DNA from: a virus
Reading direction: 5' to 3' (one strand)
IMG/VR virus record: IMGVR_UViG_3300028844_004383
Span: 1-26,907 of that record
DNA: 26,907 nucleotides
Each line of letters opens with the position of its first letter. Within the stretch, counting starts at the first letter, position 1. The notes beneath the pieces were generated by a model. The model worked only from the letters and a program-made list of their open reading frames with translations. It searched no databases and had not been told where the DNA came from. Made by a program: the position numbers and the translations under genes. This document shows positions 1-13,887 of the stretch, piece after piece.

Positions 1-69
1 GAAAAAGAAGAAATTCTTAGAAGAGAGCTTAAAGTAAATACACGTAAACTTAAGAAACAGGGAGCATAG
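1..69 (+). CDS. C-terminal end of a truncated upstream gene
   Basis: The frame is open from the first base and ends at TAG (67-69), giving 22 residues rich in Lys, Arg and Glu (starts EKEEILRRELK, ends KKQGA). It is the tail of a gene that begins outside the window. The next gene starts two bases after the stop, and its Shine-Dalgarno GGAG (61-64) lies inside this tail, which fits co-transcription. The charged composition suggests a helical C-terminus; no function can be assigned. Confidence 0.6.
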   Translation, partial: EKEEILRRELKVNTRKLKKQGA

Positions 70-71
70 TA

Positions 72-452
72 ATGAAAACATACAAAACAATGCTTAACGA
101 GATTGCTCCCTTTGCAGTAACTCCAATGACTGCTGTTTTGGGTGTTGGTGCAGTTGCAGGTGCTTTCTTGGCCGTAAAGGAAATTGTTTCCGATACAATT
201 AAGGCTGGTGTTAGATTTGTTGTTAAGAATCCTGTTCCTGTTGCCGTTGCTTCTATTGCGTTTGATCAATACTTTAATGAAGGTAAGGGTACTAAGCTTA
301 TCTTTAGATACTTCCAAAGATCATTTCCGGGTCAGGCAAGAGCATTCTATCAGGGCATGACTGATATTGTAGTGACAAAACAAATCACACCTGATAAAGT
401 TGCAGACATGGCAGGTAAAATTATTTCTGAGTTTGATAAAATGAAAGACTAA
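72..452 (+). CDS. Small hydrophobic protein of unknown function
   Basis: This 126-residue protein is not recognised. The ATG is supported by GGAG seven bases upstream. Residues about 15-40 form a Val/Ala/Gly-rich hydrophobic segment and residues about 48-66 a second, weaker one. The C-terminal half is polar and probably helical (FPGQARAFYQGMTD). Two membrane-associated segments in a small phage protein could mean an inner-membrane protein or a hydrophobic virion component; the sequence does not decide. It lies directly upstream of the sulfotransferase/glycosyltransferase block, one base before the next ATG, so it is probably co-translated with it. Confidence 0.7.
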   Translation: MKTYKTMLNEIAPFAVTPMTAVLGVGAVAGAFLAVKEIVSDTIKAGVRFVVKNPVPVAVASIAFDQYFNEGKGTKLIFRYFQRSFPGQARAFYQGMTDIVVTKQITPDKVADMAGKIISEFDKMKD

Positions 453-453
453 A

Positions 454-1119
454 ATGTTTGCATTGAAAAATAGCTCTGATGAGCTTTTGGTTTTTTACGA
501 TGTTCCAAAAAATGCCAGCACAACAATTAAAAAACTTTTTATTGATCACTTAGGAATGGGTGATCAATTTGGTTTTTATGGGGAAGAATATATAGACCCA
601 GAAACTGGTAAAAGAGTGAGCAATATCGAAAAATCTGCTGAGTATAAGCAGCAGGTAGGTACTAAAAAAAATAAAGATTTCCACGACTTCGCTGAAAATA
701 GACCCTTTAGTTCAATAGGTTCTGAAATATCTTGTAAAAAGGTATGTGTAGTAAGAAAACCTATGGAGAGATTCATTTCTTGCTACAATCATCTTGTAGT
801 TGTTAATAAAGAGTTTGATGCAACGCCAGATGAAATTCTTGATCAAATAATCGATGGATCAATTCGTAACAATCATTTCTTTCCACAATCATTCTTCTTG
901 GGAAAGAACGTAGATTATTATGACAAAATTTACAATACTAAGCAGCTTGATATTCTAGAAAGAGATATGAACACGTTTTTTGGTAAGAAGAACAAAGTTT
1001 ATCAGTACCAAACATCAGGTAGTTCTGTAGTGTTCCCTAGAGATTTGGACGAATCATTCAGAATTAAACTACACAAAGCATATAAATCTGATTATGAAAC
1101 CTTTGGAGACTTTTTTTAA
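454..1119 (+). CDS. Sulfotransferase-like protein (PAPS-dependent fold)
   Basis: This 221-residue protein looks like a sulfotransferase of the carbohydrate type, which moves sulfate from PAPS to a glycan hydroxyl. The N-terminal loop PKNASTT (residues 18-24) follows a beta strand (LLVFYDV) and matches the 5'-phosphosulfate-binding loop. VVRKPMERFISCY (about 99-111) matches the 3'-phosphate-binding strand and helix with its Arg and Ser. The length is typical of the short phage/bacterial members. It starts the block 454-3351 of two sulfotransferase-like proteins and two glycosyltransferases, so the likely target is a sugar on the virion or host surface (inference). A weak AT-rich hairpin (541-568) lies in its 5' coding part. 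Confidence 0.75.
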   Translation: MFALKNSSDELLVFYDVPKNASTTIKKLFIDHLGMGDQFGFYGEEYIDPETGKRVSNIEKSAEYKQQVGTKKNKDFHDFAENRPFSSIGSEISCKKVCVVRKPMERFISCYNHLVVVNKEFDATPDEILDQIIDGSIRNNHFFPQSFFLGKNVDYYDKIYNTKQLDILERDMNTFFGKKNKVYQYQTSGSSVVFPRDLDESFRIKLHKAYKSDYETFGDFF

Positions 1120-2052
1120 ATGAAAATTTGTTATGTTGCTCATAGGTACTACCCATTCCCCGGAGGGACTGAGTACTACGTACAAAATCTTGCTGAAGAG
1201 ACACTTTCTCAGGGTCATGATGTTACAGTATTAGCGGCTCAGCACAAAGGTAATCAAAACGGTGTTAAAGTTACTGACGACGTTCAGACTTTAATTCGTG
1301 AAAAGTTTGATCTTGTAGTAGTGCATGGTTCTGGTGTTGGAATGCAGGACACTGTTCTCTTAAACGCAAGACAAATTCCTTCTCCTATTATGTTCATGAT
1401 TATTCGTCCTGAAGAATCAAAACAGATTTTTCCTGCTATGGAAAATTCAGACTTTGTTGCATGTTCGACCCCTACAGACTGGAGATTCGTTCAAAAGTAT
1501 CGGCAGGATCATAAGTCTGTTCAGGTTAATCATAGTATTAGTATCAAAGACGTTGCTGAACAGACAAACAAGTCTATAGGATCATTATTTGAGCCTTATG
1601 CTATTTCTGTTGGCGGGTTTTGGTCTCATAAGGGGCATAAAGAGTTATCTAAAGGATGGACCGTAGATAAGAGACTGTTCATGACCGGATACAATAATGA
1701 CCAAAATTGGGTTCCCGATGTATCTAATAAACCAAACCAACACATATTGTTTTTAGACAACAAGGAAGATGTTCTTCGTCATATTAGAGACGCAGAATTA
1801 CTTGTTCTTAACAGTCAATATGAAGGTTTCGGTCTAGTTCTTCTAGAAGCAATGTTGAACGATACACCTTGGGCTTCTACACCTGTAGCTGGAGCAGAGG
1901 TTCTTGAAAATCAAGGGTTTGTTTACAACTCTCTTCCCGAACTTATGGAATATGTCAAAAAGGGTGAATATATCAAAGGCGATAAGCAATTCGTTATTGA
2001 TAACCACTTAACAGACACAACAGTTAAACAGATATTGGATGTTGTGAAATGA
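1120..2052 (+). CDS. GT4-like glycosyltransferase (GT-B fold)
   Basis: A 310-residue retaining glycosyltransferase of the GT-B fold. The N-terminus MKICYVAHRYYPFPGGTEYY is the typical family-1/GT4 opening with the glycine-rich acceptor-side loop. The C-terminal domain carries the donor-binding E-x7-E motif (E235 and E243 in EGFGLVLLEAM), followed by the TPVAGAEVL stretch expected after it. About 310 residues is at the short end for GT4. It starts immediately after the sulfotransferase gene stop and overlaps the next gene by ATGA, which indicates coupled translation. The sugar donor and acceptor cannot be inferred. A TATAAATC sequence 32 bases before the ATG resembles a late promoter but occurs elsewhere in coding DNA too. 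Confidence 0.85.
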   Translation: MKICYVAHRYYPFPGGTEYYVQNLAEETLSQGHDVTVLAAQHKGNQNGVKVTDDVQTLIREKFDLVVVHGSGVGMQDTVLLNARQIPSPIMFMIIRPEESKQIFPAMENSDFVACSTPTDWRFVQKYRQDHKSVQVNHSISIKDVAEQTNKSIGSLFEPYAISVGGFWSHKGHKELSKGWTVDKRLFMTGYNNDQNWVPDVSNKPNQHILFLDNKEDVLRHIRDAELLVLNSQYEGFGLVLLEAMLNDTPWASTPVAGAEVLENQGFVYNSLPELMEYVKKGEYIKGDKQFVIDNHLTDTTVKQILDVVK

Positions 2053-2765
2053 AATTAGTAATTTACTCAGATGATGAGAAAGCTCGTAGTCCTATTGTTC
2101 AGTCGGCCCTCAAGTACGGTTTTGACCTTCACGTAGCAACGGGAAAGTACCGTTGGTACAAAGACTTAGAAACAAGAACACATAAAACTCTAGAAGTTTT
2201 AGAGACCTTTGATCCCAAAGAATTGGTAGTTGTTACTGATGGACATGATGTTTTTGTGAATAATTATGCAAAAGAATTTAGAGAAATATACGAAGAGCAT
2301 TATAATGGTAAAATTGTCTTTCAATCGGAACATCAAAATTGGCCGGATCCTAGACTGGAGAAAAAATGTCTTGAGAAGTTTAGTGACCCTGATGGCTATA
2401 GTTTTCTTTGCTTTGGGATGCATGTTGGTACTGCTGAACAGCTTATAGAACTTTATCGTAAAGGTTTGTGGTTGGGTCACGTTGATGATGAATTGAAACA
2501 AATAAATCCAAATCTTAAGTGGTCTTTTGATGATCAGTTATTCTCTGTGATTCAATATCTTGAGAGGGACGATATTGTTCTGGATGGTAATTGCTATCTT
2601 TGTCAGTCGATGCAAGGACCAGCCCTTCAGAGTGGTGATATTGCGTTTACACCTGATTTTATTTTAAATATTAAGAAGAACACTAGGCCGGTTTTTGTGC
2701 ATGGTCATGGAAATGTTCAAATCAAAGAAATATACGATCAGATAGTGAGACGTTATGGATATTAA
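2049..2765 (+). CDS. PLOD/procollagen-type glycosyltransferase domain protein
   Basis: A 238-residue protein that resembles the glycosyltransferase domain of PLOD/procollagen galactosyl-glucosyltransferases (GT-A fold). The metal-binding D-x-x-D lies in VVVTDGHDVFV (D64, D67). Further landmarks are FGMHVGTAEQL (about 121-131), where the family has its nucleotide-sugar strand, the catalytic-region FDDQLF (159-164), and the C-terminal VHGHGN (216-221) that supplies metal-binding His. It overlaps both neighbours (ATGA upstream, 11 bases downstream), so it is translated with the block. Known eukaryotic relatives glycosylate hydroxylysine. Here a protein, glycan or modified-base acceptor is possible; no lysyl hydroxylase gene is visible in the window. 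Confidence 0.75.
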   Translation: MKLVIYSDDEKARSPIVQSALKYGFDLHVATGKYRWYKDLETRTHKTLEVLETFDPKELVVVTDGHDVFVNNYAKEFREIYEEHYNGKIVFQSEHQNWPDPRLEKKCLEKFSDPDGYSFLCFGMHVGTAEQLIELYRKGLWLGHVDDELKQINPNLKWSFDDQLFSVIQYLERDDIVLDGNCYLCQSMQGPALQSGDIAFTPDFILNIKKNTRPVFVHGHGNVQIKEIYDQIVRRYGY

Positions 2766-3351
2766 AAAAACATTTTTTGTTTTTGGTCTTCAAAAGTCTG
2801 GAACAAAATACCTTAAAACCCTTATTGAGACAAACACAGATCTTGACTTTCATAAAGATTACGCATGGAAGCACGACATGGATACGTCTGTTTATCAGAA
2901 TGATGATGTTATTAAGTTTTGGATTACAAAATCACCTTACAACTGGATCAAGTCTGTCGTTTACAGACATCGTGTAGATATTCTAGGAAAGTACAGAAAA
3001 TATAAACTGAAATCTAAAGATACTATGGTCGTCCGAGATTTAAACATTCAAGCCTTGATGAATGTTTATAATGACTATCATAAATCTTGGATAGATTCAG
3101 GAGCCGAAAACGTTAAGTACGAAGAATTGCTTAACGATTGTTTTTGGTTTTTTAAGCAACAATACAAGTTAGGCGAATATAAAGTTAGTATTCCTCCTAT
3201 TAAGAACGTCAATACTTCTAAGTTTTATATTAAGGCTGAAGTAAAGGAAGAATATCTTTCTGTTCCACGTCATAATGATCCACTTGTTCTTGAGATAAAT
3301 AGATATGTAGATAAAGATCTTCTAAGAAAGCTCAAGTACGAGGTAGCATAA
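2755..3351 (+). CDS. Second sulfotransferase-like protein
   Basis: 198 residues with a P-loop-like sulfotransferase start: the strand FFVFGLQ is followed by KSGTKYL (14-20), the 5'-phosphosulfate-binding loop, in which Lys and Thr contact PAPS. FWITKSPYNWIKSVVYR (55-71) fits the 3'-phosphate-binding strand-helix. NVKYEELL later in the chain is the usual YEDLL-like strand. It shares only fold-level features with the sulfotransferase-like gene at 454, so the two are not recent duplicates. It starts inside the end of the glycosyltransferase gene and its TAA overlaps the next ATG. The substrate is unknown; a glycan or tyrosine acceptor is possible. Confidence 0.72.
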   Translation: MDIKKTFFVFGLQKSGTKYLKTLIETNTDLDFHKDYAWKHDMDTSVYQNDDVIKFWITKSPYNWIKSVVYRHRVDILGKYRKYKLKSKDTMVVRDLNIQALMNVYNDYHKSWIDSGAENVKYEELLNDCFWFFKQQYKLGEYKVSIPPIKNVNTSKFYIKAEVKEEYLSVPRHNDPLVLEINRYVDKDLLRKLKYEVA

Positions 3352-4697
3352 TGTCTAAAAAGAAAGAGTCGAAAAAGGTTAATCCAAAAGTCTTAGAAAA
3401 AATTAAGGCTATGTTGACCCCTTCTGGAAATCCTAAAGATATTATCGATACAAAACCTGAGTATAAGCTGAGACTTGATGATCCTAACTCCAATACGGTG
3501 GTAACTGAAGCTTATACTACTCCTACAATGTCATCAATCGAATCTGGCAATGCTGGAAGAATGGTTCTTTCAAGAGGTGCATCCAAACGTAAAGCAGCTT
3601 TAGCTAGGGCTTCTGCGCACGCAAAGATTGCCAACCCAACGTCTAAAGAAAATGATGATGAAGCCGAAGGTCGGGCTATGGGCGCTGTTATGATGGATGT
3701 CGCAAAGGAAGCTGGTGTCAAAGATCCACAATCTATGACTGATTCTGAATATGAATATGTAATGAACGTTACTATGCAAAAGCAAGACTCTATAAGACAA
3801 TATAAAGACAAAGCGCTCAGAGCAATTCTTGACCGCCAGAATGACCGTGGTGGCCTTAACTCTAGTTTCGATCCTTTAGCTGCTTTGGCTGGTGATGTTC
3901 TTTTTGAGAAAACTGAGGTTGAACAAGATCCTGACGTTAAGGATAGGCCGGGTACACAGCCAAAGAAATACTACAAAGGTGTAAAAGACAAAGAAGCACG
4001 GGCCAAGCAATTCAGAAAAGGCTCTAAGTCTAAAGATGATGATAAAGATGCATACAAGAAAGCACCCGGTGACAAAGGCGCTAAGACGAAAGAAAGCGAG
4101 CACACTAAAAAGTATAAAGAAAGATTCGAGTCTACAGAAATTGTAGAAGTCTTTAACAAAGGCGTTCGTAAAAAGTCTAAAGAGACAGGAATTCCATACT
4201 CTATCCTGAATCAAGTGTTTAAACGGGGTAAGGCAGCATGGAAGACAGGTCATAGACCCGGAACAACACCTGATCAGTGGGCGTTTGCACGTATTAACTC
4301 CTTTGCTACAGGCGGTAAAACAAGAACTACCGCAGATAAGGATCTTTGGAAAAAGTACCAAGAGTATAAAAAGAAAAAGAAAAAGAAGACAAAGAGTGAA
4401 GAGAACCTGCAAGAGGCAACTTATCAGGGTAAGACTGTGAAGCTCGGAGACCCTATCAGGAACTCCTCTGGCAGCAAGAAGAAGTTCCGTGTGTACGTGA
4501 CCCACCCAAAAACAGGAAACGTTGTTAAAGTAGAATTTGGCGACCCTAATATGGAGATTAAACGGGATGACCCGAAAAGGAGAGCATCCTTTAGAGCCAG
4601 ACACGGTTGTGATGCCGTAACATACGAAGATGACCGTCACACACCTAAATATTGGTCATGTTACCAATGGAGATCAGACGCAAAGGTAGATAGCTAA
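3351..4697 (+). CDS. Composite protein with DUF5824-like and marine-phage C-terminal domains
   Basis: A 448-residue, very Lys-rich protein made of recognisable pieces. Residues about 1-180 are unassigned. About 190-265 contain DRPGTQPKKYY and later APGDKGAKTKESEHTKKYK, a stretch I know beside phage head/protease proteins. About 266-345 match the DUF5824-like pattern (SKETGIPYSILNQVFKRG, then AAWKTGHRPGTTPDQWAFAR). About 353-448 hold the marine-virus C-terminal domain with VEFGDPNMEIKRDDP, FRARHGCD and YWSC, whose Cys/His spacing could bind a metal. A run of eight Lys (about 345) links the last two. The function is unknown; a virion, scaffold or DNA-contacting role is conceivable. TAATG overlaps couple it to both neighbours. 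Confidence 0.8.
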   Translation: MSKKKESKKVNPKVLEKIKAMLTPSGNPKDIIDTKPEYKLRLDDPNSNTVVTEAYTTPTMSSIESGNAGRMVLSRGASKRKAALARASAHAKIANPTSKENDDEAEGRAMGAVMMDVAKEAGVKDPQSMTDSEYEYVMNVTMQKQDSIRQYKDKALRAILDRQNDRGGLNSSFDPLAALAGDVLFEKTEVEQDPDVKDRPGTQPKKYYKGVKDKEARAKQFRKGSKSKDDDKDAYKKAPGDKGAKTKESEHTKKYKERFESTEIVEVFNKGVRKKSKETGIPYSILNQVFKRGKAAWKTGHRPGTTPDQWAFARINSFATGGKTRTTADKDLWKKYQEYKKKKKKKTKSEENLQEATYQGKTVKLGDPIRNSSGSKKKFRVYVTHPKTGNVVKVEFGDPNMEIKRDDPKRRASFRARHGCDAVTYEDDRHTPKYWSCYQWRSDAKVDS

Positions 4698-4891
4698 TGT
4701 CAACAAGAATGACTTTTGGGAACCAAAAAAGCGGCGAGCAAAATTTGCTTAAAACAAGTTTATCACTAGTTAAAAATCCAAAAACGGCTGTTCTTGGGTT
4801 AACGGGTTTGGGCGCTCTTTACTTGATTCCAAAAGGAAGGCGCTATCTTGAAAGAAAAGCTAGTGAAACCTTAGATAAACTCAGACCGTAA
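4697..4891 (+). CDS. Small single-membrane-segment protein
   Basis: 64 residues. The polar N-terminus is followed by a hydrophobic stretch around residues 30-46 (TAVLGLTGLGALYLIP) and a basic C-terminus (KGRRYLERKASETLDKLR), the usual layout of a one-pass membrane protein with a cytoplasmic basic tail. It starts in a TAATG overlap with the composite protein gene. The late promoter for the next gene begins four bases after its stop, so this is probably the last gene of its transcript. It is not recognised. Confidence 0.65.
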   Translation: MSTRMTFGNQKSGEQNLLKTSLSLVKNPKTAVLGLTGLGALYLIPKGRRYLERKASETLDKLRP

Positions 4892-4894
4892 AAA

Positions 4895-4902
4895 TATAAA
4901 TA
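4895..4902 (+). promoter_or_regulatory. T4-type late promoter box TATAAATA
   Basis: An exact match to the T4 late promoter consensus (TATAAATA), which is read by host RNA polymerase carrying gp55 with coactivator gp33. It sits in the 39-base gap between 4891 and the ATG at 4931, at the distance from the start codon usual for late genes, and precedes the AGGAG ribosome-binding site. A gp33-like gene is present at 24118. With the terminator at 5356 it frames a short, single-gene late transcript. Confidence 0.85.
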
Positions 4903-4930
4903 GTAAAAGAATTTTTAACAGGAGATTAAA

Positions 4931-5332
4931 ATGCCTTTATGGGGAAGAAACGATCAAGCAAGCAATGCTCCGTCTAATCAGATCATTTCTGGTAACGCTG
5001 CCAATGGCTATGTAATGTTTGCTAACACCACAGCAAACTCTTTTATTTACAACCACACTTCTGATGGTGTTAATCCAGCACAATCCAATGTTGCAATTGG
5101 CGTGTTTGGCGTTTCCGAAGCAGAGGCACAGGTAACGTCTAACTCTACTATCACTACTCCAGATCATGCTGGTTGGGTGACAAGAAAGACATACACCGAC
5201 ACACACGGCAATACTAGGGTTAAGAATGAAGTTTTAGTTGCAATGAGTTCTGTCGCAAATGATGCAACTGGATTTACTACTGCGGCTAATACTACTGGTT
5301 CTCTGGATGATAGCATTTTACCGGATAGTTAA
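4931..5332 (+). CDS. Virion-type protein conserved in marine myoviruses
   Basis: 133 residues starting MPLWGRNDQASNAP, an opening I associate with abundant small structural proteins of marine T4-like phages. The chain is rich in Asn, Thr, Ser and Ala. A conserved middle segment runs HAGWVTRKTYTDTHGNTRV followed by NEVLVAM, and the C-terminus is acidic (DDSILPDS). Low hydrophobicity and beta-rich composition fit a head decoration or similar virion protein, but the role is not established. It has its own late promoter (4895), an AGGAG site, and a strong terminator 24 bases past its stop. It therefore forms a single-gene late unit, as expected for a protein made in bulk. Confidence 0.75.
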   Translation: MPLWGRNDQASNAPSNQIISGNAANGYVMFANTTANSFIYNHTSDGVNPAQSNVAIGVFGVSEAEAQVTSNSTITTPDHAGWVTRKTYTDTHGNTRVKNEVLVAMSSVANDATGFTTAANTTGSLDDSILPDS

Positions 5333-5733
5333 TGAACGATAAAATTGATGAATCTAACGTGCTGCTCTATGCAGCACGTTTTTATGATAATCCCAATTGT
5401 TATGATACTGTTGAATTTTATGATGATCTTAAAAGAGTTTCTTACATAAAACGTCTTTTCAACAAGTACAAAGAAACAGGAGAACTGAAGGATAGGCTTG
5501 TTTTAAACCATCTTTTAGTTCTCTTTAACGTTTTTGGTGAGTTTTCTAATAAAATTCTTTTTTTAAAATTATCAAATTATTTGGATATTCTTGTTCCATT
5601 TTTGATTTGTATTAACAGATGTCCAAAAGAAATTAAAAATATAGGAATTGAAAATAAGACTGTACACACTTCGTCCATAAATATGGATAATTACGTAATT
5701 GAACTGTTAAGAAAAAAGCATGATAGATCCTAA
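5332..5733 (+). CDS. DUF7207-like conserved phage protein
   Basis: 133 residues with VLLYAARFYDNPNCYDTVEF near the start, then DLKRVSYIKRLFNKY and LVLNHLLVLFNVFG, a pattern I associate with a small family (DUF7207-like) in marine T4-like phages. The second half has hydrophobic helices (LFLKLSNYLDILVPFLI). The function is unknown. The ATG overlaps the previous stop (TAATG). Its codons for residues about 9-17 form the perfect hairpin and T-run at 5356-5383, so transcripts from upstream are likely stopped inside this gene. No promoter is evident between the terminator and the rest of the gene. Translation through the hairpin could antagonise termination. Confidence 0.75.
   Translation: MNDKIDESNVLLYAARFYDNPNCYDTVEFYDDLKRVSYIKRLFNKYKETGELKDRLVLNHLLVLFNVFGEFSNKILFLKLSNYLDILVPFLICINRCPKEIKNIGIENKTVHTSSINMDNYVIELLRKKHDRS
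5356..5383 (+). terminator. Intrinsic terminator inside the start of the next gene
   Basis: The perfect 10-bp inverted repeat AACGTGCTGC / GCAGCACGTT (5356-5365 and 5371-5380), loop TCTAT, runs into five T bases (5379-5383). This is a textbook rho-independent terminator shape. It lies 24 bases inside the open frame 5332-5733, just after the stop of the late virion-type gene. It would end the late transcript while also encoding part of a conserved protein. Confidence 0.75.
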
Positions 5734-6013
5734 ACAGAACATCAGAAGATACTTTCTTAAAGAAGAAGCGCCTACTGTATCTGCAGGGTCCGGAGCAGTT
5801 GCAGGTATTGGTGTTGGTCCTGATGGTGAACCCGGTGTAACACCAGCATCAGCTAAAAAGTACAAATACAGTAACAACATAATGGACTATCTTCTCGATA
5901 AAGACGAGGAAGAAGACGAGGATCCTATCGAACTTAAAAGAAGTGATAAGTTCCATAACCTCACACAAGCAGACCAGCAAAAATTAATCATGATGAAAAT
6001 GACTAGGAGATAG
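5720..6013 (+). CDS. Small acidic phage protein
   Basis: 97 residues, starting inside the end of the previous gene (14-base overlap). The N-terminal half is Gly/Ala/Pro-rich (SAGSGAVAGIGVGPDGEPG). A strongly acidic stretch (LLDKDEEEDEDPIEL, about 58-72) follows, and the C-terminus is helical and Met/Lys-rich (LTQADQQKLIMMKMTRR). It is probably soluble and partly disordered. I do not recognise a function. The position between a DUF7207-like gene and the holin-like gene offers little guidance. The AGGAG of the following gene lies inside its last codons. Confidence 0.65.
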   Translation: MIDPKQNIRRYFLKEEAPTVSAGSGAVAGIGVGPDGEPGVTPASAKKYKYSNNIMDYLLDKDEEEDEDPIELKRSDKFHNLTQADQQKLIMMKMTRR

Positions 6014-6016
6014 CTC

Positions 6017-7114
6017 ATGATTATGACTCTGGTTGGTACTCTCGGCGGATCCTTAGTAAATTCGATACCCACTCTTATCGGTCTCGCTAAAAATTCCCAA
6101 GACAATAAAGCTAAAGAGTTAGAGCATAAGCTATCTTTAGAAAAGCTTCAGTTGCAGCAAACTATGCAACTTGAAGCAATGAAGATTGGAAAGCAAATTG
6201 ACGCCACTATTGAAGACACTAGAGCTACTATTTCAGAGGGACAATCTCTTCGTGATCATGATCTTAAGCTTAACACTGGTGGCATCCTCGGAGCATTCAA
6301 GTCTGCTGTCAGACCTTTTATCACCTATGTTTTCTTTCTTACCTTTATAGGAATTAAGGCTTATGCATTCTGGTACGCTTTAAGTACGGGAATGGATGTA
6401 ACCATAGCGTTACAATTTATTTGGGATGAAAACACTCAAGCTATTTTTGGAGCCATTATGGGCTTTTGGTTTGGTGCAAGAACAATAGAAAAATTCTCAA
6501 AGAAGGCTGCATTTTTTGGTAAAAGAATGCCTAAAAAGCCGACTGTTATGCCGGGAACCCCTATGTTTTCCCGGAAAGTAGTTAGAAGAATGGATGATTA
6601 CGCTAGAGAAAAATACGGCGAATCGATACTTGGAAATTTTACTACACCTGATGCCGGAGAATTTAGACCAGACCCGAATGATTTTGTATCAGGCGCTGAC
6701 CGTAAAGCTGCTCAAAATAGAGAAAAGATCGAGGATATAAAAAGATACAGACTCAACCCTATGGTTACTCCTGTGTTTAAAGACAACCCATTTATTCCAA
6801 ACCCGGAAGCTGCTACGGATAGATATAAATCTGGAATACATATTTCCTCTTCTCCATTTGGGTATTCTAACAATATGGCACCAGATATGATTCACGGCAA
6901 CAAACTTAAGTATTCTCAAAGATTAAAGAGAAATTACAATGATCCCGGAGTTGGAGGGGCTGCTGGAGCTATCGATTCTTTAACTAGAAAGGTAGATAGA
7001 AATCCAAACATCAAACCGGGAACTGCTTTAAATCCATTAGATATGCAGAAAGCTAAAGGATCAACAGCTTTAATTAGAAAAACCTTTAAATCTCTCAATA
7101 AGATGCAATTCTAA
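6017..7114 (+). CDS. Holin-like membrane protein with long C-terminal extension
   Basis: 365 residues. A hydrophobic N-terminal segment (3-24) leads to a coiled-coil region (about 30-75). Two membrane segments follow, about 100-121 (FITYVFFLTFIGIKAYAFWY) and 141-156 (AIFGAIMGFWFGARTIEKF). The order and the closing GFWFGARTIEK resemble the three-segment GTA-type holin family. Residues 170-365 are an unrelated basic, Pro/Asn-rich soluble extension, more than half the protein, which ordinary holins lack. AGGAG stands seven bases before the ATG. The next gene, XhlA-like with a C-terminal membrane helix, begins in a TAATG overlap. A lysis or membrane-anchored virion role is plausible; no endolysin is visible in the window. 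Confidence 0.6.
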   Translation: MIMTLVGTLGGSLVNSIPTLIGLAKNSQDNKAKELEHKLSLEKLQLQQTMQLEAMKIGKQIDATIEDTRATISEGQSLRDHDLKLNTGGILGAFKSAVRPFITYVFFLTFIGIKAYAFWYALSTGMDVTIALQFIWDENTQAIFGAIMGFWFGARTIEKFSKKAAFFGKRMPKKPTVMPGTPMFSRKVVRRMDDYAREKYGESILGNFTTPDAGEFRPDPNDFVSGADRKAAQNREKIEDIKRYRLNPMVTPVFKDNPFIPNPEAATDRYKSGIHISSSPFGYSNNMAPDMIHGNKLKYSQRLKRNYNDPGVGGAAGAIDSLTRKVDRNPNIKPGTALNPLDMQKAKGSTALIRKTFKSLNKMQF

Positions 7115-7479
7115 TGGATCCTGAATATAAGCTGGCCGTTTTAGAGCAGCAAGTAAATAACTTCTCACGGTATTTCGAAAAGATGGATGCTACATTAGAC
7201 AAGCTCACAGAGTTGTCGGCATCTATCGAGAAAATTGTTGCTGTCCACGATCAGAGATTAAACGTACAGGAAGACGCTAAGGAGACCCTTACAGAGGGTC
7301 AAAAGCTTGTTCATCGTAGGATTGATAGGCTGAAGGAAGATATTAATTTAAAACTAGATTCTTTTGATAGTAAACTTGATGGAATAGAAAGGTGGAGATG
7401 GATCTTTCTAGGAGCAATGACAGGTATAATGTTTGTCATAACAAACATGGAAACTATAGCTAAGTTTTTAATGGGTTGA
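7114..7479 (+). CDS. XhlA-like coiled-coil protein with C-terminal membrane helix
   Basis: 121 residues. Residues about 5-92 have heptad-like spacing of Leu/Ile/Val with many charged residues, as in a long coiled coil (MDATLDKLTELSASIEKIV; RIDRLKEDINLKLDSFDSKL). ERWRWIFLGAMTGIMFVI at about 92-109 is a single membrane segment preceded by Trp and Arg, the arrangement seen in haemolysin XhlA/holin-associated proteins. It is translationally coupled to the holin-like gene by TAATG, suggesting partner membrane proteins. The stop codon overlaps the -35 of the promoter for the primase gene, so a new transcription unit begins here. Confidence 0.6.
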   Translation: MDPEYKLAVLEQQVNNFSRYFEKMDATLDKLTELSASIEKIVAVHDQRLNVQEDAKETLTEGQKLVHRRIDRLKEDINLKLDSFDSKLDGIERWRWIFLGAMTGIMFVITNMETIAKFLMG

Positions 7480-7503
7480 CGGTTCTAAAAGCCTCTGTAT
7501 AAT
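7476..7503 (+). promoter_or_regulatory. Sigma70-type promoter before the primase gene
   Basis: TTGACG (7476-7481) and a perfect TATAAT (7498-7503) are 16 bases apart, upstream of the GGAGG and ATG of the primase gene. This would be an early promoter served by unmodified host RNA polymerase. Initiation about seven bases after the -10 would leave a leader of only about ten bases beginning at or near the GGAGG. Confidence 0.7.
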
Positions 7504-7519
7504 CCCTTGTGGAGGTTTT

Positions 7520-8542
7520 ATGAAAAACAATTTCTTAATAGAAGCTAAGTACATTAGTCTTCTCTCTAACACCTTAACTCTCTTCAAAAATAAAGGTAAT
7601 AATACCTATAACTTTAGATGTCCTATTTGTGGTGATTCAAAGAAGGATAAGCTAAAGACTAGAGGTTATCTTATCCATAAAGAGGGTACTCACTTCTTCA
7701 AATGTCATAACTGCTCTTCAAGTATGCACTTTGATAACTTTCTAAAAGAAGTTAATTCTCTTCTTTATGGAGAGTTTATATTAGAAAGTATTTCAGGTAG
7801 GGAACCTGCTGAAGAGAAACAGCGATTCAAAACTGATATCACTAAGTTTTCTAAGAGAAGGAATGATAAGTTTGTTCCGCTTAAAGAACTAAAAAAGATA
7901 TCACAATTGCGTTATGACCATAAAGCTAAAATTTATGTGGACAAACGTAAGATAGAGAACAAGTTTCATCATAAGCTCTATTACGTACCTAAGTTTAAGG
8001 AGTGGGTGAACAAACATGTTCCGGGTAAATTTGCAAATACAACTCATGATGAAGGTAGGTTACTCATACCTTTTTTCGATGAGAACGGCTATGTCTTTGC
8101 AGTACAAGGAAGATCTCTTAAACCGGACTCAAAGTTACGGTATATTACGATAATGTTTAAGGAACAGGATAAAATCTTTGGTTTAGAAAGGCTGAATTCT
8201 AACCGGACATTTTATATCTGTGAGGGGCCGATTGATTCGTTCTTTCTTGGTAATTGTGTCGCTATGGCTGGCGCAGACACTTCCTCTAAATATTCCACCA
8301 ACTCAAATGCGGTCTTCATCTATGACAACGAACCTCGGAATACTGAGATCGTTAAGAAGATGGAGAAATGTATTTCTGAAGATAAAAAGATTGTCATCTG
8401 GCCTGAATATATTGTCGAAAAAGACATGAATGATATGGTTCTGGGCGGAATTGACAGTAATGACCTGAAGTTTATAATCAAAAGTCACACCTTTTCAGGG
8501 TTAAAGGCTAAACTGGAGTTTACAAAATGGAAAAAGAGCTAA
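7520..8542 (+). CDS. 61: DNA primase, T4 gp61 type
   Basis: 340 residues, the length of T4 gp61. The N-terminal zinc-binding module has CPIC (C34, C37) and CHNC (C62, C65), preceded by NFRC and followed by the short linker usual for phage primases. The TOPRIM core is visible as YICEGPIDSFFL (catalytic Glu, about residue 237) and FIYDNEPRN (metal-binding Asp, about 268-270), with the later VEKDMNDMVL. In T4 the enzyme makes RNA pentamers for lagging-strand synthesis with helicase gp41; gp59 and gp32 are encoded at the other end of the window. GGAGG stands five bases before the ATG, and a sigma70-type promoter lies just upstream. A hairpin covering the ribosome-binding site could silence readthrough transcripts. 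Confidence 0.88.
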   Translation: MKNNFLIEAKYISLLSNTLTLFKNKGNNTYNFRCPICGDSKKDKLKTRGYLIHKEGTHFFKCHNCSSSMHFDNFLKEVNSLLYGEFILESISGREPAEEKQRFKTDITKFSKRRNDKFVPLKELKKISQLRYDHKAKIYVDKRKIENKFHHKLYYVPKFKEWVNKHVPGKFANTTHDEGRLLIPFFDENGYVFAVQGRSLKPDSKLRYITIMFKEQDKIFGLERLNSNRTFYICEGPIDSFFLGNCVAMAGADTSSKYSTNSNAVFIYDNEPRNTEIVKKMEKCISEDKKIVIWPEYIVEKDMNDMVLGGIDSNDLKFIIKSHTFSGLKAKLEFTKWKKS

Positions 8543-8721
8543 AGCAGCATATGGGTATGGTAGTAGAAGAAGGTGGTCAGATTTTGATCGCATTCAGACC
8601 CGAGACAATCAAATTTATATCGGACACGTTAGACATAAACGAGGGCGATGTTGTGATGATTGAGGGAGGTAAGGATGCAGAATCAAATGAACCAAACATC
8701 TTTATCAATAAACTAAAGTAA
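8527..8721 (+). CDS. Small protein of unknown function
   Basis: 64 residues, overlapping the primase end by 16 bases, with GGAG nine bases upstream of the ATG. The sequence alternates hydrophobic and polar residues (GQILIAFRPETIKFISDTL, then EGDVVMIEGG), suggesting a small beta-rich domain. I do not recognise it. Its place between primase and ribonucleotide reductase suggests an early nucleotide or replication context, but that is inference only. Confidence 0.65.
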   Translation: MEKELKQHMGMVVEEGGQILIAFRPETIKFISDTLDINEGDVVMIEGGKDAESNEPNIFINKLK

Positions 8722-8738
8722 AAATAGGAGTCTCTTAG

Positions 8739-10655
8739 ATGAGTAATTACCTGCCTACTCTGTATCAGCAGTATATACACCTGTCCCGTTATTCCAGATG
8801 GCTTTACGAAGAGAACCGTAGAGAGACTTGGGAAGAAACTGTGTCTCGATATTTTGATTTTTTTGAACAGCACCTCAAAGAGAATAACGGGTATATTTTA
8901 CAAAAAGATCTTCGTGATGAGCTTGAGCAAGCTGTTCTGGGTCTGGATGTAATGCCTTCGATGAGAGCTATGATGACTGCAGGTGAGGCTCTTAGAAAAG
9001 ATAACATTGCAGGTTATAACTGTGCTTTCTTGTCTATCGACAAAGCTGTTTCTTTTGATGAAGCTATGTACATTCTTATGAATGGTACGGGTGTAGGTTT
9101 CTCTGTAGAAGAAGAGTTTACTAACAAACTTGGCGTAGTGGCAGATGAGTTTAACGATACAGACACTACCATTGTTGTTGCTGATTCTAAGTTAGGTTGG
9201 GCAAAGGCTCTAAAAGAGCTTGTTGGTATGTTGTATGTCGGACAAATTCCAAAGTGGGATGTTACAAAGGTAAGACCAGCAGGTATGCCACTAAAAACAT
9301 TTGGTGGTCGTGCTTCTGGTCCAGAACCTTTAGAGGATTTGTTTAGATTCTGCGTACATATTTTCCGCCATGCTGCAGGTAGAAAGCTTACCACGCTAGA
9401 GTGTCACGATATCATGTGTAAGATCGCTGAGATCGTCGTTGTAGGCGGTGTAAGACGATCTGCACTGATTTCCCTGTCGGATCTTTTTGATGACCGTATG
9501 CGGTCTGCTAAGTCCGGTGAGTGGTATAAACATGACCTTCAAAGAGCTTTGGCTAATAATTCTGCTGCTTACAAGGAAAAGCCAGACATTGGTATCTTTA
9601 TGGATGAGTGGAAGTCTCTTTACGATTCCAAGTCTGGTGAACGGGGTATCTTTAGCAGACAGGCTGCTAAGAAGATTGTTGAGAAGAATGGTCGTAGAGA
9701 TCCAAATTATGAATTTGGCACAAATCCATGCTCAGAGATCATTTTACGATCAAGAGAATTTTGTAATCTCTCTGAGGTTGTAGTAAGACCACACGATAAT
9801 GAAGAGACCTTGGCAAAGAAAGTTCGTTTGGCGACAATCCTTGGTACTTTTCAGTCCACTTTGACGAACTTTAAATACATTTCGAAAGAGTGGAAGAAAA
9901 ACTGTGAAGAAGAAAGACTTCTCGGTGTTTCTTTGACAGGCATTGTAGATAATCCTATGATGACTCATAAGAACGATAACTTAGGAGAATTTCTTGAAGG
10001 TCTTAAAGGGGTTGCTGTACAAGTTAATGAAAAGTATTCAAGTGATATTGGCATCAATCGTTCTGCTGCTATTACTTGTGTTAAACCTTCTGGTACTGTG
10101 TCTCAGTTGGTTGATTCTGCATCTGGTATTCATGCCCGTCATAATCCTTATTACATTCGTACAGTACGTGGTGACAAGAAAGACCCGTTAACCAAGATGA
10201 TGGTTGAAGCAGGATTTCATGTTGAAGATGATGTGACAAAACCAGATTCTACATCTGTATTTTCTTTCCCTATTAAGTGTAGTGCAGATTCTGTTTTCAG
10301 AACCGATATGACTGCAATTGAACAGTTGGAACTTTGGAAAACGTATCAGGAACATTGGTGCGAACACAAGCCTTCAGTTACTATTTCTGTTAAAGAACAT
10401 GAATGGTTAGAAGTAGGTTCTTGGGTCTATGAAAACTTTGACACTATGTCTGGCGTTTCATTCCTTCCATTCTCGGACTTTGTATACAAGCAAGCTCCTT
10501 ATCAGGATTGTTCTAAAGAAGAATATGAAGAGCTTTTGGCTAAAATGCCGAAAGATGTTGACTGGAAAAGACTTTCAGAGTATGAAAAAGATGATCATAC
10601 AGTAGGCTCACAGGAGCTTGCTTGTAGTGGATCGTCAGGATGTGAGATAATCTAG
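8739..10655 (+). CDS. nrdJ: Adenosylcobalamin-dependent ribonucleoside-triphosphate reductase (class II)
   Basis: 638 residues of the monomeric class II reductase type (Lactobacillus leichmannii RTPR-like), which reduces NTPs to dNTPs with coenzyme B12 and needs no oxygen. The opening YSRWLYEENRRETWEETV is characteristic. The redox and thiyl-radical cysteines are present: C95 in GYNCAFLS, and C331 and C342 in TNPCSEIILRSREFC, the same 11-residue spacing as C408/C419 of RTPR, with N329 and E333 of the catalytic N-x-C-x-E. The C-terminal CSGSSGC is the shuttle cysteine pair. It is about 100 residues shorter than the Lactobacillus enzyme. AGGAG lies eight bases before the ATG. The glutaredoxin at 20957 is a possible electron donor. 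Use of this class implies B12 in the infected cell. Confidence 0.93.
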   Translation: MSNYLPTLYQQYIHLSRYSRWLYEENRRETWEETVSRYFDFFEQHLKENNGYILQKDLRDELEQAVLGLDVMPSMRAMMTAGEALRKDNIAGYNCAFLSIDKAVSFDEAMYILMNGTGVGFSVEEEFTNKLGVVADEFNDTDTTIVVADSKLGWAKALKELVGMLYVGQIPKWDVTKVRPAGMPLKTFGGRASGPEPLEDLFRFCVHIFRHAAGRKLTTLECHDIMCKIAEIVVVGGVRRSALISLSDLFDDRMRSAKSGEWYKHDLQRALANNSAAYKEKPDIGIFMDEWKSLYDSKSGERGIFSRQAAKKIVEKNGRRDPNYEFGTNPCSEIILRSREFCNLSEVVVRPHDNEETLAKKVRLATILGTFQSTLTNFKYISKEWKKNCEEERLLGVSLTGIVDNPMMTHKNDNLGEFLEGLKGVAVQVNEKYSSDIGINRSAAITCVKPSGTVSQLVDSASGIHARHNPYYIRTVRGDKKDPLTKMMVEAGFHVEDDVTKPDSTSVFSFPIKCSADSVFRTDMTAIEQLELWKTYQEHWCEHKPSVTISVKEHEWLEVGSWVYENFDTMSGVSFLPFSDFVYKQAPYQDCSKEEYEELLAKMPKDVDWKRLSEYEKDDHTVGSQELACSGSSGCEII

Positions 10656-10669
10656 CATAAGGGAATAAA

Positions 10670-10864
10670 ATGGATCTTAGTCTTAATTTGAAAATTTCTA
10701 AAGATTTTAGAAAGCTTCTTGGTAAAGTTAGAAAATGGAGAAAGAATAAAAATCCTTCTATCACTGTTCCGACATCGGATCCAAGCAAACCGTTTAGAAA
10801 GGTGAAGATGAATGAGGTTTGGGGAAAGCCAACCTCATTCATTATGAAGAAGAATGATAGTTGA
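10670..10864 (+). CDS. Small basic protein containing a large hairpin at its 3' end
   Basis: 64 residues, strongly basic (KDFRKLLGKVRKWRKNKN). An AAGGGA site precedes the ATG, and it fills the gap between the reductase and the GT25 gene. The function is unknown; the basic character would allow nucleic-acid binding. Its last third encodes a 12-bp perfect inverted repeat (10808-10842), and it overlaps the next gene by 11 bases. The amino acids over the repeat (MNEVWGKPTSFIM) give no clue to protein function, so RNA structure may be what is selected there. Confidence 0.6.
   Translation: MDLSLNLKISKDFRKLLGKVRKWRKNKNPSITVPTSDPSKPFRKVKMNEVWGKPTSFIMKKNDS
10808..10842 (+). other. 12-bp perfect inverted repeat (RNA hairpin candidate)
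   Basis: ATGAATGAGGTT (10808-10819) and AACCTCATTCAT (10831-10842) are perfectly complementary with an 11-base loop. No T-run follows, so it is not a standard terminator. It ends two bases before the purine-rich GAAGAAG that should serve as ribosome-binding site for the gene starting at 10854. A role in mRNA processing, stability or translational control of the GT25 gene is possible. Confidence 0.6.
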
Positions 10865-11612
10865 AAAGTGCTTAATCATTCGCCGTGAAGGGAATCAGCT
10901 TAGTCAAGAGTATGCTAAAGTCTGTGCTGATTCCGTTGAACGGTGTAATATGCAGTCTGAGTATATTAAAGCCGTTGAGAATCTTGGTGTTGAAGATGCT
11001 GCCGAATCTGTTGGTATGAAGGTTGATTGGGAGATGGCCGAGACTCTAGACAACACCATTACTGATCATAAAGAATGTCAGGAAATGGGAAATGCTTGTT
11101 GTACGGCTAGTCATATCAAAGCAATGAGACGTGTTGTTGAGATTGACAAGCCGTGTGCGATTCTGGAGCATGATGCATATGTTATGAGAAACTTTAGGAA
11201 TTTTGAGATTCCTGATGATTATCTTGTATTTCTTGGTCCTAGAATGAGAGACAATAAAACGTATATTCCTAAGTCTAGAGTTAGAAGACTTCTCACAATT
11301 CCACAGGCAATTGGAACACATGCTTATGCTTTAACACCAGATACTGCAAAAAAGATGTTAAGTCATCTTGATGATGTTGGTTTGGTTTACGGTATCGATC
11401 ATTATCTGTTTATGAACAATGAGTCTAAAGTTCCGATTGTTGCGGCGGATCCTTATCCTACTATCTGTTGGTCTAGAAGAAGTACGATGAATGATGTTAA
11501 AGAAGAAGTTGATGGTCCAAGAGGTGTCTGGGGAGGAGAGAACGATAAAAACGTTGTTGGTATTACGACACCGGGTCTTTTAGAAGGACTTGGTTGTCCA
11601 ATTTATGTCTAG
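10854..11612 (+). CDS. GT25-family glycosyltransferase
   Basis: 252 residues. ACCTASHIKAMRRVVEIDKP, followed by CAILEHDAYV, matches the GT25 (LPS biosynthesis/procollagen galactosyltransferase-like) core, where SH-x-K and ILEDD bind the nucleotide sugar; here the acidic motif reads E105-H106-D107. IGTHAYALTPDTAKKML (about 153-169) is the second family hallmark. GIDHYLF further on fits the D-x-x-L strand near the C-terminus. GT25 enzymes usually add galactose to LPS or protein acceptors. The Cys-rich N-terminal part is unusual. It overlaps the preceding small gene and the following nuclease gene. It is a separate locus from the glycosyltransferase block at 1120-2765. Confidence 0.8.
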   Translation: MIVEKCLIIRREGNQLSQEYAKVCADSVERCNMQSEYIKAVENLGVEDAAESVGMKVDWEMAETLDNTITDHKECQEMGNACCTASHIKAMRRVVEIDKPCAILEHDAYVMRNFRNFEIPDDYLVFLGPRMRDNKTYIPKSRVRRLLTIPQAIGTHAYALTPDTAKKMLSHLDDVGLVYGIDHYLFMNNESKVPIVAADPYPTICWSRRSTMNDVKEEVDGPRGVWGGENDKNVVGITTPGLLEGLGCPIYV

Positions 11613-12084
11613 TGGTGGTTCAGCTTCAAAACGAAAAGGTTCTTCTTTCGAAAGAGAGATTGCAAATGACCTAACTAAAAGATTAGGGGAGACGTTTATT
11701 CGTGTCCCTTATTCTGGTGCCTTTATTGGTGGTTCTAATTCTAAGAAGAAAGAAATTCTTCACGAAGGACAGATTAGAACATTTAAAGGGGATATAATTC
11801 CCGGTCCTTCCTATTCCAAATGGAACGTTGAATGCAAGTCGTACAAAGAATTTGCATTTCATAGATTGTTTCTAAACACAAAGATACCACAACTGGATCA
11901 GTGGATAGAACAACTTCTCGATGTTGCAGATGAAGGAGATGTTAATCTTCTTTTTATGAAGTTCAATCGTAAAGGCAGGTTTGTTTTACACAACCTTAAG
12001 GACTTCGATTGTTTCGGTATTACCTACAACGGTGTTTGGAATTTCACTTCTTACGACTTATTTTTAGAGGTTCTTTGCAAATAG
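11605..12084 (+). CDS. PD-(D/E)XK nuclease, Holliday-resolvase-like
   Basis: 159 residues from the ATG at 11605, which overlaps the previous stop; an upstream TTG start is possible but has no better ribosome-binding site. KRKGSSFEREIANDL carries the N-terminal acidic residue (E16/E18), and KGDII (D63) and VECKSYK (E76, K78) complete the PD-(D/E)XK catalytic centre. The RVPYSGAFIGG segment is typical of Hjc/resolvase-like phage nucleases. It could process branched recombination or packaging intermediates, or act as a repair or restriction-type nuclease; the sequence does not separate these. A short hairpin (12073-12091) at its 3' end lacks a strong T-run. Confidence 0.78.
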   Translation: MSSGGSASKRKGSSFEREIANDLTKRLGETFIRVPYSGAFIGGSNSKKKEILHEGQIRTFKGDIIPGPSYSKWNVECKSYKEFAFHRLFLNTKIPQLDQWIEQLLDVADEGDVNLLFMKFNRKGRFVLHNLKDFDCFGITYNGVWNFTSYDLFLEVLCK

Positions 12085-12104
12085 CGCAAAGGTTATTCCT
12101 TAAT

Positions 12105-12135
12105 CTGACACTGTAAATACAACCCTTTGTATACT
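12105..12135 (+). promoter_or_regulatory. Candidate sigma70-type promoter
   Basis: CTGACA (12105-12110) and TATACT (12130-12135) each match five of six consensus bases but are 19 bases apart, which is longer than ideal. The site lies in the 80-base gap before the small gene at 12165. A start near 12142 would fall inside the loop of the dyad at 12124-12156. Confidence 0.4.
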
Positions 12136-12156
12136 AAGTAATAACGTATTCAAAGG
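12124..12156 (+). promoter_or_regulatory. Interrupted 11-bp dyad covering the ribosome-binding site
   Basis: CCTTTGTATAC (12124-12134) pairs with GTATTCAAAGG (12146-12156) with one T-T mismatch and an 11-base loop. The right arm contains the AAAGG of the Shine-Dalgarno AAAGGAG for the gene at 12165; the left arm contains most of the candidate -10. RNA reading in from upstream would hide the ribosome-binding site. RNA started at the local promoter would lack the left arm and leave it free. As DNA it could equally be a repressor operator. Confidence 0.55.
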
Positions 12157-12164
12157 AGATTGAC

Positions 12165-12329
12165 ATGTTCGGATTCATAAAAACAATTAAAAATAAGATC
12201 CACAACAAAGATAATGTTTTTGATCATTTTCTTAGAGTGGAATACAAAAACGATATTCAAGCTATCAAGAAAATGGGTTTGTCTGATAATCAGGCAGTTG
12301 AAGAAATTAGGAGAAGAATGGGTGTTTAA
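12165..12329 (+). CDS. 54-residue basic protein
   Basis: The short frame opens with ATG nine bases after a perfect AAAGGAG, so the start is well supported. The product is basic at the N-terminus (FGFIKTIKNKIHNKDN) and ends in a UBA-like helix pattern (IQAIKKMGLSDNQAVEEIRRRMGV), in which a KMGL turn separates two helices. No family is recognised. Its last codons contain the AGGAG and GTG start of the next small gene. Expression may be controlled by the dyad just upstream. Confidence 0.65.
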   Translation: MFGFIKTIKNKIHNKDNVFDHFLRVEYKNDIQAIKKMGLSDNQAVEEIRRRMGV

Positions 12330-12492
12330 ATCTATTAGTAACAAGCTAAAAGATATTAGAGAAAGAATGTCTATGTCGGATGAGGAATACTACCTATCAA
12401 AAAGCACAGATCTTGTAGACTGTGAACACAGACAAAGACAGATTATGTACGGTAAATTTAGAAGAGATGGTTTCCTTCACAGCAGGTATTAG
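12322..12492 (+). CDS. DUF3563-like small protein
   Basis: 56 residues from GTG at 12322, chosen because AGGAG (12309-12313) stands eight bases upstream and because a longer upstream reading of the frame would overlap the previous gene almost completely. The segment EEYYLSKSTDLVDCEHRQRQ resembles the short DUF3563 family (a conserved Y-L-x-x-S-x-D-L-x-D-x-E-x-R pattern), which is common in proteobacteria and their viruses and has no known function. It overlaps the preceding gene's TAA by GTG/TAA interleaving, so translation is coupled. Confidence 0.6.
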   Translation: MFKSISNKLKDIRERMSMSDEEYYLSKSTDLVDCEHRQRQIMYGKFRRDGFLHSRY

Positions 12493-12535
12493 AATATTCT
12501 GCATATTACTTTCAATGTTACAAGGAGCAAAACCT

Positions 12536-12694
12536 GTGCGAGGTTTTAATGAGTGGGCAGAACGGCGTGGACGTTCAGCTATCATCAGAGAATGGGGCAT
12601 GATTAGTCCTGATTCTAAGAATAACATCATTGACATGTGGGTTGATAATGGTAGTATCTCGAAATCCGAAGCAAAAAGCCTTCGGAAGAGATAA
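12536..12694 (+). CDS. 52-residue small protein ending at the tRNA
   Basis: The frame could begin earlier (ATG at 12467 or 12515), but only GTG at 12536 has a good ribosome-binding site (AAGGAG at 12522-12527, eight bases away) and avoids overlap with the preceding gene. From there the product is RGFNEWAERRGRSAIIREWG followed by a short acidic helix and a basic end (SEAKSLRKR). It is probably a small helical soluble protein and is not recognised. The TAA at 12692-12694 directly abuts the first base of tRNA-Arg, so the tRNA must be cut out of an mRNA that also carries this gene. Confidence 0.5.
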   Translation: MRGFNEWAERRGRSAIIREWGMISPDSKNNIIDMWVDNGSISKSEAKSLRKR

Positions 12695-12771
12695 CCACCC
12701 TTAGCTCAACTGGATAGAGCAATCGCCTTCTAAGCGATAGGTTTCAGGTTCGAGTCCTGAAGGGTGGGCCA
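12695..12771 (+). tRNA. tRNA-Arg (UCU)
   Basis: A full cloverleaf can be drawn. Acceptor CCACCCT/AGGGTGG, D-stem GCTC/GAGC, anticodon stem ATCGC/GCGAT with loop CTTCTAA (anticodon TCT at 12729-12731), five-base variable loop, T-stem TCAGG/CCTGA with TTCGAGT loop, discriminator G. The 3' CCA (12769-12771) is encoded. All stems are fully paired. It reads AGA, which looks like a frequent Arg codon in the surrounding phage genes. Confidence 0.95.
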
Positions 12772-12807
12772 TTCCCTTAGATTTGACAAATGAATAATAT
12801 TCAAGTA

Positions 12808-12815
12808 AATAAATA
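12808..12815 (+). promoter_or_regulatory. Late-promoter-like box AATAAATA
   Basis: Seven of eight bases match TATAAATA. It lies 28 bases before the ATG at 12843, the same distance as the exact box at 4895 from its gene, and downstream of tRNA-Arg. A TTGACA (12783-12788) also lies upstream but has no convincing -10 at the right spacing. It would drive the 12843-13762 pair as late genes. Confidence 0.45.
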
Positions 12816-12842
12816 CAATTGATGTATTTTTAGGAGACTTGA

Positions 12843-13262
12843 ATGATACTTGGTTTGTCTGTTGGTGTTGCTGCCCTTGTTACAGGATATTCAATGTGGC
12901 GTGTGTATGATATCTTTTTTAGTGATAAGGAAGAAGAAGAAGTACCGTCCATTACTTATCTTCACGATTCAGAAATTTTTCAAGATCCTCAGATGGGGAT
13001 TGATTATAGAATCGAAGACACTCAAGGCGTCGATGCTGATAAAACACTAGAAGCAATTAATGAATGGATTCAGGAAGACGAACCTAATCTAATCACTGGT
13101 GATTACGATATTAAAGTATCCACACTTAGTAACATTGCTCTAGTAGAAATTTCTGGTGATGCCTCTTCACTATTGCTAGATTCATATAACGACGTAGAAA
13201 TCCCTTACGTTGATGGTGAGAATAATCTCGAATGGGTTAAGGTAGATATGGATTTCACATGA
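12843..13262 (+). CDS. Membrane-anchored acidic protein of unknown function
   Basis: 139 residues. The N-terminal hydrophobic segment (LGLSVGVAALVTGYSMWRVY, about 3-22) looks like an uncleaved anchor. It is followed by the acidic stretch SDKEEEEVPSI and a soluble domain with alternating strands (IKVSTLSNIALVEISGDASS). AGGAG stands six bases before the ATG. It overlaps the glycine-zipper gene by ATGA and shares its candidate late promoter, so the two probably work together at the membrane. No family is recognised. Confidence 0.7.
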   Translation: MILGLSVGVAALVTGYSMWRVYDIFFSDKEEEEVPSITYLHDSEIFQDPQMGIDYRIEDTQGVDADKTLEAINEWIQEDEPNLITGDYDIKVSTLSNIALVEISGDASSLLLDSYNDVEIPYVDGENNLEWVKVDMDFT

Positions 13263-13762: not shown

Positions 13763-13777
13763 CCTAATCAAAATAGT

Positions 13778-13853
<76 letters not shown>

Positions 13854-13860
13854 TTTCTTG

Positions 13861-13868: not shown

Positions 13869-13887
13869 AGGGAAAATGGAGGCTTCT

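Follow-up and report, generated by a model that had tools for sequence, protein, structure and literature searches.

Stable hairpins that serve the 3' end of one message from within the coding sequence of the next gene are of a kind already known in Escherichia coli and in an engineered construct. In E. coli, hairpins protect the upstream mRNA from 3'-to-5' decay (differential mRNA decay); 17 of 26 such protective hairpins lie inside the downstream coding sequence, at a mean of 107 ± 56 nt into it; they have no U-tract, and their wobble positions are conserved (PMC5927463). A terminator that lies less than 100 bp into a coding region is also efficient, as determined in E. coli with the terminator tR2, since the polymerase stays ahead of a ribosome that has just initiated, and termination is full when more than 27 nt separate the upstream stop codon from the hairpin (PMC4824070). 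Selective RNA processing and stabilization of the cellulosome operon has been described in Clostridium, with mapped processing sites (PMC4423207). In phages, a comparison of T4-like cyanophages published in 2010 accepted promoters and terminators only where they were intergenic or lay no more than 10 bp from the end of an ORF (PMC3037559), a rule that excludes intragenic terminators, so that elements embedded in a coding sequence would by construction be missed. Terminators in phage annotation are normally sought only between genes. In T7, the annotated position of the terminator Tphi, which acts on the phage polymerase, is the gap that separates genes 10 and 11 (24210; CDS end 24162, next start 24228). 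Our literature search, which covered open-licence papers only, found no phage description of the arrangement reported here, which is weak evidence of absence.

The locus lies in a stretch of viral DNA of 26,907 nt (IMG/VR record IMGVR_UViG_3300028844_004383), the whole of which is referred to as the window. Its neighbouring genes include those for primase, ribonucleotide reductase, PhoH, a helicase loader, and an ssDNA-binding protein, which mark the phage, an uncultured one, as T4-like. The features relevant to the analysis, all predicted from the sequence, are as follows.

4895 to 4902, + strand: late promoter of T4 type, TATAAATA, serving the head gene and lying 36 nt 5' of its ATG
4920 to 4925, + strand: ribosome-binding site AGGAGA of the head gene, as read in the sequence
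4931 to 5332, + strand: late head protein gene, phrog_26159/3086/613-like, whose stop overlaps the next start (TAATG)
5332 to 5733, + strand: phrog_407 / DUF7207 gene, function unknown, with the hairpin in its first codons
5356 to 5380, + strand: RNA hairpin with a perfect 10-bp stem and a 5-nt loop, over codons 9-17 of the phrog_407 gene
5379 to 5383, + strand: U-tract T5, with 6 T among the 8 nt past the last G-C pair
5720 to 7479, + strand: genes 5720-6013, 6017-7114, and 7114-7479, from the ORF list

Read directly from the sequence, the hairpin consists of AACGTGCTGC-TCTAT-GCAGCACGTT followed by TTT, with stem arms at 5356-5365 and 5371-5380. The stem of 10 bp (6 GC) closes a loop of 5 at about -17 kcal/mol, and TTTTTAT stands past the last G-C pair, two T of the T5 pairing within the stem. 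Both hallmarks of an intrinsic terminator, a stem of about 5-14 bp that contains G-C pairs and closes a short loop, and a U-tract directly 3' of it, are thus present, as an earlier note on this DNA had described (a 10-bp perfect stem with a T run), and its reading of the segment as dual coding is likewise borne out, the hairpin spanning codons 9-17 of the 5332-5733 gene. The stem begins 24 nt inside the ATG at 5332 (span +24..+48), and 23 nt separate it from the TAA of the 4931-5332 gene. The local fold reached -18.3 kcal/mol (z = -5.2), which none of 200 shuffles equalled, and the site ranked as the top terminator-like one of positions 1-20000. On the + strand of the window, three sites combined at least 10 pairs, at least 6 GC, and a U-tract, compared with none in 60 order-2 Markov sequences. 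Rfam covariance models gave no match at E<=1 against 4600-6100, and a DNA similarity search of the same region against annotated phages found none.

The upstream gene matched phrog_26159 and phrog_3086 as well as the head protein family phrog_613. By itself, TATAAATA is near chance level in the window (3 found, 1.8 expected), and the copy at 4895-4902 is backed by its position, since a match recurs upstream of homologous head genes: within 100 nt upstream, the exact motif was found in 27 of 65 homologues and a version with one mismatch in 33 more, mostly near -36, against 8 exact and 52 one-mismatch occurrences in 670 random 100-nt stretches. No exact late promoter was found in the 100 nt past the head-gene stop in any of 67 homologues. 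This agrees with the earlier proposal of a late virion gene with its own promoter, and the head unit, as judged from its sequence, comprises a late gene, the promoter of that gene, a good ribosome-binding site, and a trailing hairpin. The phrog_407 gene has homologues in 476 phage records, and a search of genome contigs from bacteria and archaea found no relative. Further along the + strand, a good sigma-70-like site next occurs at 7476-7503, ahead of the primase gene; barring an overlooked promoter, transcription of the genes from 5332 to 7479 would therefore require read-through.

The stem could in principle be a by-product of the protein that it encodes, and our comparison of codons argues against this. 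When all codings of NVLLYAARFY were enumerated with the codon usage of the window, the probability of a stem of at least 10 bp was 0.0009, and codon shuffles of the phrog_407 start gave no hairpin as strong as the native one in 200 draws. The stem is built from locally rare codons, GTG, CTG, and CTC accounting for 0.11, 0.09, and 0.10 of their respective families. The earlier note had regarded VLLYAARF as a conserved segment, a view that does not hold for the family, whose consensus over the segment is FLLYAAKH; the stem is specific to the window clade. Positions 10, 16, and 17 are mostly F, K, and H in homologues (58, 59, and 43 of 76), and V10, R16, and F17 occur in only 6, 5, and 0 of the 76; the codons of these three residues form the outer stem and U-tract of the hairpin. 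We looked for relatives that keep the amino acids without the stem, and all five that encode VLLYAARF (L002, L003, L004, L045, and L088) retained both stem and U-tract. In the first four (92% amino acid identity), the stem is kept through a GCA -> GCG change that creates a G.U pair, and one loop codon is changed. The stem of L088 (76% amino acid identity) is identical to that of the window; this locus was located by a search with the hairpin sequence, so that its perfect conservation is a biased sample. An independent scan based on the peptide found no further relative with the VLLYAARF residues. By itself, codon identity between the window and L088 is weak (8/9 versus 54/88), a difference in the right direction with too few codons.

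Two other hairpins of the window served as controls. A second strong hairpin in the phrog_407 gene (5478-5525, + strand; 16 pairs with G.U, loop of 16) fell from -17.0 in the window to -0.8 in L002/L004/L045 and -4.6 in L088, and is probably accidental, as it is lost in relatives of 92% identity. A terminator-like 11-bp hairpin with TTTT inside the glycosyltransferase gene 21201-22160 (21329-21357, + strand; -16.9 in the window) is gone from the 83%-identical homologue of L088's genome and is probably accidental for that reason. Taken at the level of sequence, selection on the 5356-5380 stem goes beyond the amino acids.

In T4-like phages, strong hairpins also recur behind homologous head genes, at 20-100 nt past the stop. 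About 25 of 67 deduplicated head-gene homologues, among which related loci are not independent, were followed within 160 nt of the stop by a hairpin with a perfect stem and an energy of about -13 kcal/mol or lower, beginning about 19-85 nt past the head stop and nearly always within the next coding sequence. Hairpins were scored by perfect stem; energy scanning with a general local folder returned genuine stems together with long imperfect ones. The loci were collected through the window's own proteins and in part through the hairpin itself (L088), and where contigs are unannotated, the gene starts are those of ORF calls. With 200 codon-shuffle draws per gene, the first 110 nt of the next gene reached the floor of p=0.005 in 20 of 64 cases and p<=0.01 in 24, compared with 3 and 4 of 64 for the control stretch +110..+220. 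The genes that carry these hairpins are unrelated to one another, comprising phrog_407, a MADxKKVSEL family, and genes beginning MNFGGF.., MSSEVV.., MFNFKAY.., and MAGGIKAS... Even within the MADxKKVSEL group, the hairpin is laid over different codons in each lineage (TTLSANDRVV, ALTGPVAEDLLV, DRVLVLRDP, and TSVGGSD). Among 10 distinct sequences of the TTLSANDRVV hairpin, two-sided changes were found at four pairs, with alternation of U-A, C-G, and G-C at two wobble positions; 91% of cells were paired, 12 cells were double-changed, and none of 500 shuffles was as high in double-change count and covariation score. More than one-third of the 67 homologues, including most cyanophage-type loci, had weak hairpins only, and most hairpins behind the head genes of other phages lacked a U-tract.

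Because homologous head genes have hairpins in unrelated next genes, the element appears to follow the upstream head gene and not phrog_407. The assignment of the hairpin to phrog_407 was rejected in this wider comparison, most phrog_407 homologues of 50-60% identity (with AATTTTTTATTA... codons) having no hairpin there. Some phrog_407 genes of other phages carry hairpins of their own. The cultured Rhizobium phage RHph_I1_18 has hairpins at 51529-51552 and 51798-51820. The latter, a terminator-like GCAGCGTCA-CATTA-TGACGCTGT-TTTT, lies at +39 of the phrog_407 gene (L109 3040-3062); it is unrelated to that of the window, and the preceding gene has another hairpin at +72. Perfect 12- and 14-bp hairpins without a U-tract, at about +32..+74 of phrog_407, were seen in two phages not close to the window (L036 7257-7294 and L093).

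Start-proximal coding hairpins were also found elsewhere in T4-like phages; codon-shuffle nulls for these surveys of tight junctions rest on 6-20 draws. In RHph_I1_18, hairpins of -13 kcal/mol or stronger occurred at +30..+90 in 7.9% of genes starting within 15 nt of an upstream stop (null 0.43%) and in 2.5% of other genes, and the enrichment was absent past about +150. The corresponding values were 2.6% versus 0.19% for 529 other tight-junction genes of the collected loci, and 20% versus 1.25% for genes immediately behind the head gene, with the enrichment highest at +30..+120. In T4, 8 of 109 tight-junction genes had a hairpin at <=-12 (null 1.1%), compared with 0 of 86 at +170..+270. Cr30 showed little start-proximal excess, and in DLP_6 the excess extended deeper inside genes as well. 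U tails were no richer in near-start hairpins than in hairpins deep in genes, so that start-proximal hairpins as a class are not intrinsic terminators, and the idea that all of them terminate transcription was rejected. Individual cases include T4 (NC_000866.4) 96235-96257, 89912-89933, and 92168-92186, near the starts of late genes 16, 11, and wac, which have no U-tract and stand behind tightly packed upstream genes; the gene 16 hairpin was assigned from annotation, and genes 11 and wac, recognised by sequence, are presumably the other carriers. Strong coding hairpins also lie near the start of the gene annotated as sliding clamp in RHph_I1_18 (45598-45624) and of helicase genes. The apparent sliding clamp counterpart in L088's contig has a different strong coding hairpin (L119 about 6594-6624; contig 65094-65124), the two lying at +39 and +66. 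A short gene (MLPEEQDLNDLKLDIGLLTKDVEQTNRL..) with a hairpin at about +41 occurs in two phages (L095 near 2124, L099 near 3948), between which an apparent compensatory change from C-G to T-A was seen.

In our judgment, the hairpin at 5356-5380 is probably a 3'-end element of the late head mRNA that sits within the next coding sequence because there is no intergenic space, and in the window clade it would act as an intrinsic terminator of partial efficiency. Most transcripts that start at the 4895 late promoter would end near 5383, yielding a head-protein message of about 0.5 kb, and phrog_407 and the genes beyond it would be supplied at a reduced level through read-through. On longer transcripts cleaved downstream, the stem would additionally stop 3'-to-5' exonucleases. 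In other clades, a hairpin without a U-tract would act mostly as a protector of the head mRNA. Since most hairpins of the other phages have no U-tract, the function that they share need not be termination; it can be to give the head mRNA a 3' end that is either protected or terminated. Termination, its efficiency, protection, and the ratios of gene products are what we infer from this arrangement.

The placement of the element resembles the engineered tR2 construct, in which a stem and U-tract likewise lie about 30 nt past a start codon, with the stop codon of an upstream gene before them (PMC4824070), although the stem of the window is a natural phage element that also codes for conserved protein. 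The distance of 23 nt from stop to stem counts against a terminator, falling just below the >27 nt of full termination in E. coli (PMC4824070), and by analogy the ribosome finishing the upstream gene, at 23 nt, is the one that could weaken termination. The earlier suggestion that translation of the downstream gene controls the hairpin through ribosome loading found no support and is made less likely by the finding that terminators early in a coding sequence work, a new ribosome arriving too late (PMC4824070). As with the protective hairpins of E. coli, a stable hairpin lies about 20-110 nt inside the downstream gene (+24..+48 in the window), usually without a U-tract, its structure is conserved through codon choice (codon shuffles, MADxKKVSEL covariation, and retention in the clade), and the upstream gene is expected to be abundant (PMC5927463). 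The phage case differs in that the window clade adds an intrinsic-terminator tail (T5), which most other phages lack; it concerns a late head gene of T4-like phages with its own late promoter, whose mRNA would be protected, and the hairpin sequence and even the carrier gene vary by lineage. Like the Clostridium stem-loops, the hairpins would stand behind abundant-subunit genes and set transcript ratios for a protein complex, whereas those of the cellulosome operon are intergenic, with mapped processing (PMC4423207). With T7 Tphi, the element shares a position right behind a virion head gene (major capsid gene 10 in T7) and ahead of less needed structural genes; it differs in lying inside the next coding sequence and in that it would act on the host polymerase.

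A related explanation holds that the hairpin is a protective 3' structure and not a terminator, a longer polycistronic late RNA being cut in phrog_407 and trimmed by exonucleases as far as the hairpin, with selective stabilisation of the head mRNA. One mechanism would then cover the entire hairpin family, most analogous hairpins have no U-tract, and hairpins in downstream coding sequences have their precedent in E. coli (PMC5927463). For the window clade, however, we consider it rather unlikely, because T5 is kept in five of five relatives and a protector needs none. That the hairpin controls the downstream gene, by attenuating or timing phrog_407 translation or by coupling it to translation of the head gene, would fit the finding that coding hairpins close to the start are also enriched at tight junctions after genes other than the head gene, among them sliding clamp and helicase genes; it is nevertheless improbable, as the stem begins 24 nt past the ATG and thus beyond the initiating ribosome, the head gene is followed by hairpins regardless of the next gene, and phrog_407 genes in most other loci have none there.

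The two equally strong window hairpins that appear accidental (5478-5525 and 21329-21357) suggest that a chance coding palindrome, maintained by protein constraint, can arise in this genome, and both were lost in relatives. An accident of this type at 5356-5380 is very improbable in view of the enumerated codings and codon shuffles, the retention of the stem in all five relatives, a G.U change included, and the reappearance of such hairpins after homologous head genes. Still less credible, and close to negligible in our estimation, is a palindrome acting at the DNA level, for example as a site for a dyad-symmetric protein. Perfect Watson-Crick stems are possible on both strands, and the sense-strand excess is modest (6.0% versus 4.0% at <=-10 in +30..+90), but each lineage has a wholly different stem sequence, the sense strand contains G.U pairs (the L004 stem, and pair 15-27 of the MADxKKVSEL hairpin), and the U-tract is one-sided.

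A wider generalization, which is possible and which we advance only tentatively, is that virion and replication genes of T4-like phages systematically have their 3'-end hairpins encoded 30-120 nt into the overlapping gene that comes next; such hairpins would go with the upstream gene, be reinvented for each coding sequence, switch between protective and terminator form, and thereby set virion protein ratios. If correct, it would offer compact genomes without intergenic space a simple way to set virion protein ratios, as well as a natural dual-coding set for studying terminators and RNA protection in translated regions. Recoding of phage genes could unknowingly destroy such embedded signals. 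As T4 has the same start-proximal hairpin excess, the proposal is testable in a standard laboratory phage. Elsewhere in the window, a bidirectional terminator-like hairpin, AAAAAGGGGGC-TTCT-GCCCCCTTTTT, lies between convergent genes at 25906-25936 and is a candidate for an ordinary intergenic terminator.
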